A DNA stretch of 40,379 nt from Miltoncostaeales bacterium (GTDB lineage Bacteria; Actinomycetota; Thermoleophilia; Miltoncostaeales; Miltoncostaeaceae), in NCBI GenBank assembly GCA_030833665.1, contig JAURGT010000014.1, positions 1 to 40,379 of the forward strand. The letters are read 5' to 3'. Positions 32,919 through 38,202 of this stretch are shown here, piece by piece. How positions within the stretch are numbered: the stretch's first letter is position 1; each line of letters begins with the position of its first letter. A model generated the notes under the pieces. It ran no database searches. It saw only the letters and a program-made list of their open reading frames with translations, and was not told the DNA's origin. A program made the translations under genes and the position numbers.

Positions 32919-34855
32919 CAGTTGACCTTCGCCCCGGTGCCGCAGGTGTCGGCGGAGAAGCCCACGTACGCGCCGATGGCCCGGCACACGACCGGGGCCG
33001 CGGAGTTCGCGCCCTGCCCACCACGCTCCACCACCACGGCCACGAGGATCTTCGGGTCGTCGGCCGGCGCGTAGCCCACGTACCACGCGTGATCGATGCC
33101 GCTGGGGTTCTCGGCGGTGCCCGTCTTGCCCTCCACCCGGAACTGCTCCGGCAGACCCCCGAAGACCGGCGTGGCCGTGCCCCCATTTCCATTCGCCGCC
33201 CGGCGGAGCCCCGTGCGCACGAGCCGCAGGCTCTGCTCCGAGATGCCGAGCGGGCGCTTCGCCCGTGCGCTCAGCAGGTCGCGCAGCACGCGGCCGTCGG
33301 CGTCCACCACCGCCCGCCCGAGGGTCGGCGTCACCACCGTGCCGCCGTTGGCGATGGCCGCGTAGGCCACCGCCATCTGGATCGGCGTGACGAGCACGTT
33401 GCCCTGCCCGATCGACATGTTGATCGAGTCACCGGGGCGCCACGAGCAGTTGATGGGGTCGACCGCGCGATCGCAGGTACGGCGCTTGTAGGCCAGATCG
33501 GGTACCAGTCCCGCGCTCTCGCCCTCCACGGTGTCGAGGCCGGTCGGGCGACCCAGGCCGAACTTGCGGGACCAGTCCTGCAGGGGCCACCCGCGCACGC
33601 GATACGAGCGGTCACCGATCTCGTAGAAGAACGTGTCGCTCGATACCTCGAGCGCCTCGGACACACCGATCTTCCCGTGGTCGGTCTCGTTGAAGCCCTT
33701 GAAGCGGGTCTTGTAGAGCACCACGGAACCGGGGGACTCGATGATCTCCCCCGGCTTGTACAGCCCGCTCTCGATCGCCGCGGTCGCGGTGATGGCCTTG
33801 AACGTGGACGCGGCGGGGTACTCGCCCCCGATCGCGCGGTCGAGCAGCGGCCGGGCCGGGCTCGTGAGCAGCCGTCGCACCTCGCGCGGGCTGCCCGACT
33901 GGAAGACATCCGGGTCGTACGTGGGGTATGACGCCAGCGCCAGCACGGCGCCGGTCGTCGGGTCGATCGCGACGCCCGCGGCCCCCGTGGACGTGCCCGA
34001 CCCACGCACCTCGTCGCGCAGCGCCGCCTCGAGCGCCTTCTGCACCTTCACGTCGATTGACAGGCGCAGCGTCTGGCCCGGGCGCGGCGGGGTCTGGGAG
34101 AGGATGCCGCGCCCCACCACCTCCCCGCGGGCATCCACCTCCACCTGCTCGCGGCCGGCGATCCCGCGCAGGTACTCCTCGTATTCGGCCTCCATCCCGG
34201 CGCGGCCCACGGTCTCATTGCCGAGGTAGCCGCGGCTGCCGTACTCCTCCGCCTTCTCGGCGGGAATCGGCCCGGTGTAGCCGAGCACGTGCGCGGCCGC
34301 GGTGCCCTCCGGGTAGTCGCGCACGTATGCGGCCTCCAGGCTGATCCCGGGCAACTGCGCACGGCGCTCTTCGACGTACGCCTGCAGCTCAGGGGTCGTG
34401 TCCTCCTCGAGGACCACGGCTTCGAACGGCCGTGACTCGCCGGACTTCTTCACCTTCGCCGCGAAGTAGCCCGGGGGATGCCCGAGCGCCACGGAGAGCC
34501 GCCTGAGAGCCCCCGCGCCCTTCGTCCCGGTGAGCTGGCTCGGCTCGGCGACGAGGTTCAGCACCTCACGGCTCGTGACGAGCGGCGCGCCATTGCGATC
34601 GGTGATCGCCCCGCGTGGCGCCTCCGTGATGACCGTGCGCAGCCTGTTGGCCTCGGCGCGCTCCTGGTAGTCACCGCCGCCGATCACCTGCAGGAACCAC
34701 AGGCGCGCCACGAGCACACCGAGCAGCAGCAGCACGGCCATGGTGAACGACGCCATGCGCAGCACGGGACGCGGTGGGCGGCGGATGCGGCGGCGCGGCG
34801 GGCCGGGCTCGTCGCCGGACGGCAGGTCGGGAGGGATCGGGCTCGTTGTGCTCAC
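32918..34855 (-). CDS. mrdA: Penicillin-binding protein 2 (elongasome transpeptidase)
   Basis: 645 residues. A proline/arginine-rich cytoplasmic tail, one membrane helix (about 34-55), the PBP dimerisation domain, then the transpeptidase: S-T-F-K near residue 350 (catalytic Ser), SSD near 403 and KTGT near 576. It cross-links peptidoglycan with RodA during side-wall growth. GTG at 34855 overlaps the mreD stop (GTGA). A region with DAVDPINCSWRPGD and the C-terminal CRAIGAYVGFSADTC contains cysteines that could form disulfides outside the membrane. Confidence 0.95.
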   Translation of the reverse strand: MSTTSPIPPDLPSGDEPGPPRRRIRRPPRPVLRMASFTMAVLLLLGVLVARLWFLQVIGGGDYQERAEANRLRTVITEAPRGAITDRNGAPLVTSREVLNLVAEPSQLTGTKGAGALRRLSVALGHPPGYFAAKVKKSGESRPFEAVVLEEDTTPELQAYVEERRAQLPGISLEAAYVRDYPEGTAAAHVLGYTGPIPAEKAEEYGSRGYLGNETVGRAGMEAEYEEYLRGIAGREQVEVDARGEVVGRGILSQTPPRPGQTLRLSIDVKVQKALEAALRDEVRGSGTSTGAAGVAIDPTTGAVLALASYPTYDPDVFQSGSPREVRRLLTSPARPLLDRAIGGEYPAASTFKAITATAAIESGLYKPGEIIESPGSVVLYKTRFKGFNETDHGKIGVSEALEVSSDTFFYEIGDRSYRVRGWPLQDWSRKFGLGRPTGLDTVEGESAGLVPDLAYKRRTCDRAVDPINCSWRPGDSINMSIGQGNVLVTPIQMAVAYAAIANGGTVVTPTLGRAVVDADGRVLRDLLSARAKRPLGISEQSLRLVRTGLRRAANGNGGTATPVFGGLPEQFRVEGKTGTAENPSGIDHAWYVGYAPADDPKILVAVVVERGGQGANSAAPVVCRAIGAYVGFSADTCGTGAKVN

Positions 34856-35452: not shown

Positions 35453-36367
35453 TCAGCCCTCGGCGCGGCGCTTCGCCGCCGCCGACTGCGGAGTGAGCAC
35501 CGCCACCGACGCCAGCTCGCGCACGTCGGCGAAGGGCGTCACCTGGATGGTGAGGAAGGTGTCGACCGGCTGTGACCCGGCCCCGGCCACCTGGCCAATC
35601 GGGATGCCGCGCGGGAATACCGACGGCAGGCGGAGGTCGGCGACGAAGCCGGCTGTGCGCACCACCGCACCATCGCGCACGCGGAAGTCGCGGGGCACGT
35701 TGTCGAGCATCAGCTGCCCGCCCACGGTCGGCCGCAGCACGCCAAGCGCACCACCGGAGCCATCGACCGTCGCCCCGACGCGCGTGGAGGAGTCGGTGAT
35801 GAAGCTGACGATGCTGCTGCCCACAGACGCCGAGGTGATCACGCCGACGAGCGACGCCCCGGGTGCGGCCGCGGCCACCACCGGGCTGTTCACCACCACG
35901 CCGTCATTCGTGCCCGCGTCGATGCGCGCACGCGAGTACCAGTTGGTCGGCGAGCGCCCGATGATCGATGCGACCACGGGCTTGTAGCCGCCGGGCACGT
36001 CATCGGTTATGCGCAGCAGGGCGCGCAGGCGCGCTACCTCGGCGGCCTGGTCAGTTGCCGCCAGTACCTGGGCGCGCAGCGCGGCGTTCTCCTCCTTGAG
36101 GCGCTCGTTCTCGCCGCGGGCGTCAAAGAGACCGGTCACCCAGTCCCACGCGCCCGTGAAGGGCTCCACGATCCGGCTGCCCACCGACTGCAGCGGCGCC
36201 ACGACGGTGCCCGCCAGGCGCTGGGTGCCATGCGCCGGGCCGTCGCCGCCCTCGCGGAAGTAGACCGTGAAGAGGATCAGGCACACGGCCACCAGGCCGC
36301 CGATGACGCTGCGGCGGATGATCGTCCGGCGCCTCTCGAGGTCGTTCTTGCGCGGGGTTCGGGGAAT
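35453..36367 (-). CDS. mreC: Rod shape-determining protein MreC, probable ATT start
   Basis: 304 residues: basic cytoplasmic tail (1-19), membrane helix (about 20-37, VIGGLVAVCLILFTVYF), coiled coil (about 80-120, NERLKEENAALRAQVLAATDQAAEVARLRALL) and the two beta-barrel MreC domains. It is the periplasmic-side scaffold that activates PBP2/RodA. The first GTG in frame (36292) would cut the membrane helix in half. Upstream to the in-frame stop at 36398-36400 there is no ATG, GTG or TTG, only ATT at 36367 with a perfect AGGAGG six bases ahead. I therefore start there. Confidence 0.85.
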   Translation of the reverse strand: MPRTPRKNDLERRRTIIRRSVIGGLVAVCLILFTVYFREGGDGPAHGTQRLAGTVVAPLQSVGSRIVEPFTGAWDWVTGLFDARGENERLKEENAALRAQVLAATDQAAEVARLRALLRITDDVPGGYKPVVASIIGRSPTNWYSRARIDAGTNDGVVVNSPVVAAAAPGASLVGVITSASVGSSIVSFITDSSTRVGATVDGSGGALGVLRPTVGGQLMLDNVPRDFRVRDGAVVRTAGFVADLRLPSVFPRGIPIGQVAGAGSQPVDTFLTIQVTPFADVRELASVAVLTPQSAAAKRRAEG

Positions 36368-36373
36368 CTCGGG

Positions 36374-36379
36374 CCTCCT
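36374..36379 (-). promoter_or_regulatory. Perfect Shine-Dalgarno AGGAGG of mreC
   Basis: AGGAGG on the minus strand with a six-base spacer (CCCGAG) to ATT at 36367. No other start codon lies at a usable distance, so the site itself argues that ATT initiates mreC. Confidence 0.7.
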
Positions 36380-36403
36380 ACGACGCGGCCGGGCCGGCTA
36401 TCG

Positions 36404-36425
36404 GCCCACGATATGCCACGTGGGC
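36404..36425 (-). promoter_or_regulatory. Hairpin in the mreB-mreC gap
   Basis: 7-bp arms GCCCACG (36404-36410) and CGTGGGC (36419-36425) with an 8-base loop, inside the 90-base gap between the mreB stop and mreC. No T run follows on the minus strand, so it looks like an attenuator or RNA-processing/stability hairpin rather than a full terminator. Confidence 0.5.
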
Positions 36426-36457: not shown

Positions 36458-37598
<1,141 letters not shown>

Positions 37599-37629: not shown

Positions 37630-38202
37630 TCACGGGGGAAACAGGCCGGCCCCGCGCAGCAACGTGGCCACATCGGCCACGGGGAGCCCGATGATCGCGC
37701 TCGGCTCGCCCGTGACGGACTCCACCAGCGCCGCGCCGGCGCCCTGGATGGCGTAGGCACCCGCCCTCCCCTGCCACTCGCCCTGCGCCAGGTACCAGTC
37801 GAGGAGTGCGTCGTCGAGCTCCCGGAAGCGCACCTCCGCCACGGCGAGGGCCTCCGACTCGCCGCGCTGGGTGAGCAGCACCACGCCGGACATCACCTGG
37901 TGCGCACGGCCCGACAGCGCAGCCAGCATGGCCCGGGCCTCCAGCGGCCCCGCCGCCTTGCCGAGCGCCCTGCCGTCGAGCACCACCTCGGTGTCGGCGC
38001 CAAGCACGCCTCCCCCCTCCGGCACGCCCACGCGGCCGGCCACCTCGTGCGCCTTGCCGCGTGCGTGCGCCATCACCCGCTCGGGAGCGGGGAGGCCCTC
38101 GTCACTCTGCTCGGGCTCCCCCGAGGCGACCACGCGGAACGGCACGCCCAGCGACCCGAGCAGCGCCCGCCGCTGGGGCGACCGCGAGGCGAGGATGATC
38201 AG
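37630..38202 (-). CDS. maf: Maf nucleotide pyrophosphatase, CTG start
   Basis: 190 residues. [23 protein letters not shown] is the Maf N-terminus (S-x-S-P-x-R), followed by [28 protein letters not shown] and AYAIQGAGA. Maf proteins hydrolyse non-canonical or modified nucleoside triphosphates and have been linked to septum inhibition. The conserved start lies 19 codons before the first GTG. CTG at 38202 overlaps the ndk stop as CTGA, with GGAG eight bases upstream, and is the only start that completes the protein. Confidence 0.9.

Follow-up and report, generated by a model that had tools for sequence, protein, structure and literature searches.

A conserved AUU/AUC codon behind a strong Shine-Dalgarno sequence as the very probable start of mreC in a genus of small-genome actinobacteria

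To our knowledge, AUU serves as the start codon of only a few bacterial genes. In E. coli, infC is described as an AUU-started gene subject to autoregulation by IF3 (Butler et al. 1987, cited in PMC1780047). The output of E. coli pcnB, which also starts with AUU, is reported to be limited by this codon (Binns and Masters 2002, cited in PMC13009471 and PMC1780047). For lepA of Borrelia burgdorferi and Bacillus licheniformis, an AUU start was proposed by comparison (PMC1780047). In S. aureus, extended Shine-Dalgarno (SD) sequences accompany such codons in cvfC1 (AUU), infC and ccpN (AUA), and the non-canonical start sites reached about 10% of an AUG reporter in poor medium (PMC13009471). The pairing of a weak AUN start with a strong SD is hence already known; mreC as described here is unusual as the gene concerned and for the retention of this arrangement across a genus. 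A literature search combining mreC with 'ATT start codon' found no papers.

The gene lies in a stretch of 40,379 nucleotides (hereafter the window), which is contig G000:C27 of a 1.62 Mb assembly in 121 contigs. The genus consists of small-genome actinobacteria, and the congener records that carry names are metagenome assemblies. On the minus strand, mreC ends at 35453 and is flanked by mreB on one side and by a 197-residue membrane ORF on the other. The features of the locus are the following:

36458..37555, minus strand: mreB, upstream neighbour, with stop TGA at 36460-36458
36408..36413, minus strand: TATCGT (TANNNT) in CATATCGTGG, candidate -10 element in the mreB-mreC gap, from the alignment
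36398..36400, minus strand: in-frame TAG closing the mreC frame on the upstream side
36374..36379, minus strand: SD AGGAGG, separated from ATT by the 6-base spacer CCCGAG
36365..36367, minus strand: ATT, predicted start codon of mreC, fMet expected (ATT/ATC in congeners, onset of coding constraint)
35453..36367, minus strand: mreC as re-defined, 304 aa plus stop (open frame and Pfam match)
36293..36364, minus strand: part lost with GTG 36292, comprising the basic N-terminal tail and the first part of the helix, PRTPRKNDLERRRTIIRRSVIGGL
36290..36292, minus strand: GTG, first canonical in-frame start codon, rejected as start (inside the membrane helix)

An earlier note on this DNA had drawn attention to the ATT six bases behind an AGGAGG, and the sequence on the minus strand is as claimed. 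The same note had called ATT the only candidate before the membrane helix. Indeed, ATG, GTG and TTG are absent from the mreC frame between TAG 36400 and GTG 36292, but the wording was slightly overstated because ACG 36325, ATC 36322, ATC 36319, ATC 36304 and CTG 36295 also lie in frame. These near-start codons are all located downstream of the onset of conservation, and none has a comparable SD. The window contains 42 AGGAGG sites on both strands, and ATT follows 4-9 bases downstream only at mreC. Since this is the sole ATT-bearing AGGAGG, since the arrangement is kept in 18 congeners and since few four-fold positions of the gene are T/C-only (see below), the combination of SD and ATT is more than chance. 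The mRNA shows no unusual folding near the start (z 0.59), and the locus gave no Rfam match.

The re-defined protein matches the MreC family PF04085 of Pfam with E=5.7e-28 (98 bits, cut-off 28). Its assignment to MreC is based on this barrel domain, the single N-terminal membrane helix and the gene order mreB-mreC-mreD; the mreD position is taken by the 197-aa membrane ORF ending at 34852, a putative mreD. Translation from ATT yields the basic tail PRTPRKNDLERRRTIIRR followed by a complete hydrophobic helix (19-residue hydropathy 2.05). By contrast, translation from GTG 36292 leaves only the helix remnant MAVCLILFTVYF (best window 0.84) and loses the preceding basic residues. As it would delete half of the membrane helix together with the conserved basic tail, GTG 36292 was rejected, and the functional initiation at this codon that had been considered earlier finds no support. 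Thus, gene finders limited to ATG, GTG and TTG would let mreC begin inside its membrane helix.

The mreC start can be read in 18 species of the genus, 17 of which have complete genes, whereas in G015 the gene is split over two contigs. The 17 complete proteins are 68-100% identical to that of the window. The codon at the start position is ATT in 13 and ATC in five of the 18 species, and an SD is found in every readable congener, as AGGAGG, AGGAGGA, GAGGAG or, in G012, GGAG. The codon comparison with relatives that had been proposed in the earlier note thus came out in favour of ATT: the same position holds ATT/ATC in 18/18 species, and no congener among them carries the ATG or GTG that would have pointed elsewhere. 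Moreover, the ratio pN/pS is 0.85 for the ten pseudo-codons just upstream of ATT, 0.46 for codons 2-25, 0.47 for codons 2-14 and 0.28 for the rest of the gene, and one group of species has a one-codon in-frame deletion within the N-terminal tail. The drop in pN/pS at ATT and the in-frame indel suggest that coding starts at or close to this codon. The genus also displays the hallmarks of a non-canonical AUN start, namely the lack of any ATG, GTG or TTG giving a full-length protein, a fixed and conserved AUN codon, and a strong SD, which is weaker in G012. Comparison between the species therefore speaks for the start position, the conservation of AT(T/C), the strong SD and the lack of a conserved alternative start, and ATT/ATC is very probably the true mreC start in the genus.

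It is very unlikely that ATT is non-coding and that translation begins downstream, either at a cluster of ACG, ATC, CTG and ATG codons at codons 15-17 (36325-36317) or at GTG 36292. Five congeners do carry ATG at codons 15-16 (GTG ATG in G009; ATG ATG in G004, G002, G003 and G017), which would keep the whole helix and could also initiate, several species have GAGAGG before the cluster, and other non-canonical starts occur in the genus. However, this ATG would remove the conserved tail, and the onset of coding at or near ATT is also seen in these five species. Furthermore, codons 2-14 are under protein-level constraint and contain the one-codon indel, the cluster differs in codon type between species, and GTG 36292 cuts the helix. 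Even less likely is an entry of translation from upstream, be it by readthrough of the mreB stop, at a non-canonical start ahead of ATT or through a frameshift after initiation at an upstream ATG. Such an entry could be imagined for G012, in which mreB ends in the mreC frame with its stop 12 bases ahead of ATT. However, the spacing and relative frame of mreB and mreC vary among species, the in-frame upstream stops sit at differing places, and a coding signature is absent upstream of ATT.

As regards the junction of the two genes, the actual mreB start may be an ATG near 37500, and a separate mreC promoter between mreB and mreC is possible, with TATCGT as a putative element. Most of the genus conserves the stretch GGCATATCGTGG (36406-36417, minus strand) around TATCGT; TATCGT is absent in G012 with its short mreB-mreC distance.

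Outside the genus, mreC starts with ATG in the same-family genera g3, g5, g6, g7 and g12 and with GTG in g2, g9 and g10; the same-family genera that were read exclude g8 and g11. The sister genus g4 has CTG at the aligned start of both mreC genes (L227 and L229; G033 and G022), preceded by GAGG, and in the stretch shown there is no ATG, GTG or TTG until past the arginine pair. In the other families of the class (24 genomes), GTG, TTG or ATG is located near the corresponding place in nearly all cases. Judging from the aligned starts, ATT/ATC in mreC is particular to the genus within the genomes examined, and at least one further unusual mreC start occurs in the family, the putative CTG of g4. 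Counted from ATT/ATC, the tail before the arginine cluster comprises 10-11 residues in the genus, and most of the family relatives starting with ATG or GTG have about ten residues ahead of this cluster. The similar distance lends further support to ATT/ATC as the start.

The strength of the SD was calculated as the hybridisation of the leader with ACCUCCUUU and ranked against 161 genes with a shared canonical start; the usual anti-SD was assumed throughout, as the pattern used did not recover the 16S 3' end of G018. The leader of mreC in the window forms an anti-SD duplex of -10.2 kcal/mol, which is above 96% of the 161 reference genes. In 13 of 17 species, the mreC SD ranks above 96-100% of the reference genes and in three above 88%, while the weaker one of G012 exceeds 68%. 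Part of the weakness of the codon may be compensated by this unusually strong SD.

The third base of the start codon is never G across the genus. In a comparison that is rough because the species are related and the 18 start-codon cases are not independent, four-fold third positions with an invariant amino acid (n=105, 17 full-length species) have G in some species at 97 positions, and four of the 105 columns stay T/C in all 17 species. Twelve of the 17 species have ATT itself, whereas none of the 22 two-fold columns keeps T in at least 12; of 224 internal isoleucine codons, 198 are ATC. According to the tree, the start codon changed twice from ATT to ATC and never to ATG. This pattern points to a start codon that is kept as AT(T/C), unlike an internal isoleucine codon. 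The persistence of AUU/AUC even though the identity of mreC falls to 68% is good comparative evidence for the maintenance of the weak codon. One could still regard ATT/ATC as the true start and yet as a neutral accident, the strong SD making the identity of the codon nearly irrelevant and no regulation of MreC being involved. Few of the genes measured have a stronger SD, the CTG of maf and the ACG of infA are also unusual starts in the genus, and much the same pattern would result from an ancestral lapse that the SD made tolerable, with no selection for low output. However, a single change from T/C to G makes ATG, and none was seen despite the frequency of G in the four-fold columns (97/105), so that the neutral account is considered rather unlikely.

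We regard it as likely that the weak AT(T/C) start carried by the strong SD keeps the production of MreC limited. The ATT/ATC of mreC would be decoded by the ordinary initiator tRNA, and the 30S subunit would dock on mreC through the long SD pairing, thereby allowing initiation despite the third-position mismatch. The fMet-tRNA would pair with AU- and mispair at the third base, and IF3 would reject many of these complexes. Inefficient initiation would limit the supply of MreC, which would rise if the discrimination by IF3 falls. Lower MreC output, dependence on IF3 and selection for low MreC are what we infer by analogy; the first two are plausible in view of the behaviour of infC, pcnB and cvfC1. 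The further proposal of the earlier note, that the weak start sets MreC well below MreB, is speculative. IF3 is present in 17 of 20 genomes, including all 13 good ones. In G018, one tRNA-Met agrees in sequence with an ordinary initiator, its anticodon stem having three G-C pairs, and nothing in the sequences points to a special initiator tRNA. A reason for low MreC exists in E. coli, in which an excess of MreC shortens and widens the cells and co-expressed MreD suppresses this effect (PMC7793260). In the same organism, MreC was estimated to be about twice as abundant as MreD and PBP2-RodA (PMC7793260). The mreC start thus offers a simple test case for whether the dosage of MreC is set by start-codon strength.

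Among the described systems, cvfC1 and ccpN of S. aureus are closest in design to mreC because they share a conserved AUN codon and an unusually strong SD. However, these starts were mapped by Ribo-Ret and measured with reporters, whereas that of mreC is comparative only, and both phylum and gene differ. Like mreC, pcnB has an AUU start outside infC, but its function is different, and the mreC codon is kept genus-wide as ATT/ATC. For lepA as for mreC, AUU was inferred since other starts give no full-length protein; mreC differs by the genus-wide conservation test, of which the available part of PMC1780047 describes none for lepA. With infC, mreC shares the AUU codon and the expected discrimination by IF3. 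The parallel drawn earlier with infC holds for the AUU-type codon and is otherwise loose, as GTG seems to be the start of infC in this genus, and mreC would lack a direct IF3 feedback loop because it does not encode IF3.

Other unusual starts were sought in gene pairs drawn from 0.46 Mb of G007 and almost the whole of G018, and the rates refer to roughly 370-380 such pairs. When G007/G000 was first compared with G018 for coding conservation ahead of canonical starts, out-of-frame ORFs dominated the output; adding a requirement for third-position excess reduced it to ten candidates, mreC and maf being the convincing ones. Estimating starts by log-likelihood walking flagged 160 of 379 genes, mostly falsely. 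A search for rare codons with an SD shared by both genomes returned mreC again, maf and infA, and several other matches were discarded because the ATC immediately followed a canonical GTG or the codon lay within the frame of another gene. There are thus at least three such genes (mreC, maf and infA) in about 380 pairs, a lower bound since the searches are not fully sensitive. The two additional candidates are:

38200-38202, minus strand: CTG, likely start of maf (37630-38202), overlapping the ndk TGA (CTGA), with GGAG eight bases upstream
L239 (G000:C37:20068-20274; loci L236-L252): infA (IF1) with ACG as candidate start

The maf gene has no ATG, GTG or TTG ahead of its conserved protein start, and CTG is kept in 19/19 readable species, so that maf seems to start with CTG across the genus. 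The first downstream ATG, GTG or TTG removes the LASRSP motif; in the window, GTG 38145 deletes SRSP. Similarly, infA seems to start with ACG in 12 of 17 congeners, in which ACG lies behind an AGGA-type SD without a conserved ATG, GTG or TTG nearby and the next in-frame one is mostly at least 33 codons downstream. In the other five (G009, G002, G003, G004 and G017), an ATG is present in frame, seven codons ahead of the codon that aligns with ACG. Gene finders restricted to ATG, GTG and TTG would also cut the SRSP motif of Maf and the start of IF1, and these annotations should therefore be rechecked. It is doubtful that the rare starts of mreC, maf and infA, perhaps with a CTG-started ORF in the infC leader, form a coordinated set under discrimination by IF1 and IF3; such a set would tie genes of cell-wall elongation and the septum to the state of the translation machinery.

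The infC locus itself gave no Rfam match. The gene (L064, others in L062-L078) apparently has a GTG start, which its sole strong SD, AGGAGGGG, precedes by about 25 bases. The leader that contains this SD hardly varies among the 12 congeners that were read. From this SD, a short frame (CTG ACG ACG CCC GTA GCC CGT GCC ACC TAG) would run across the infC start, and it is possible that it encodes a CTG-started leader peptide controlling IF3.
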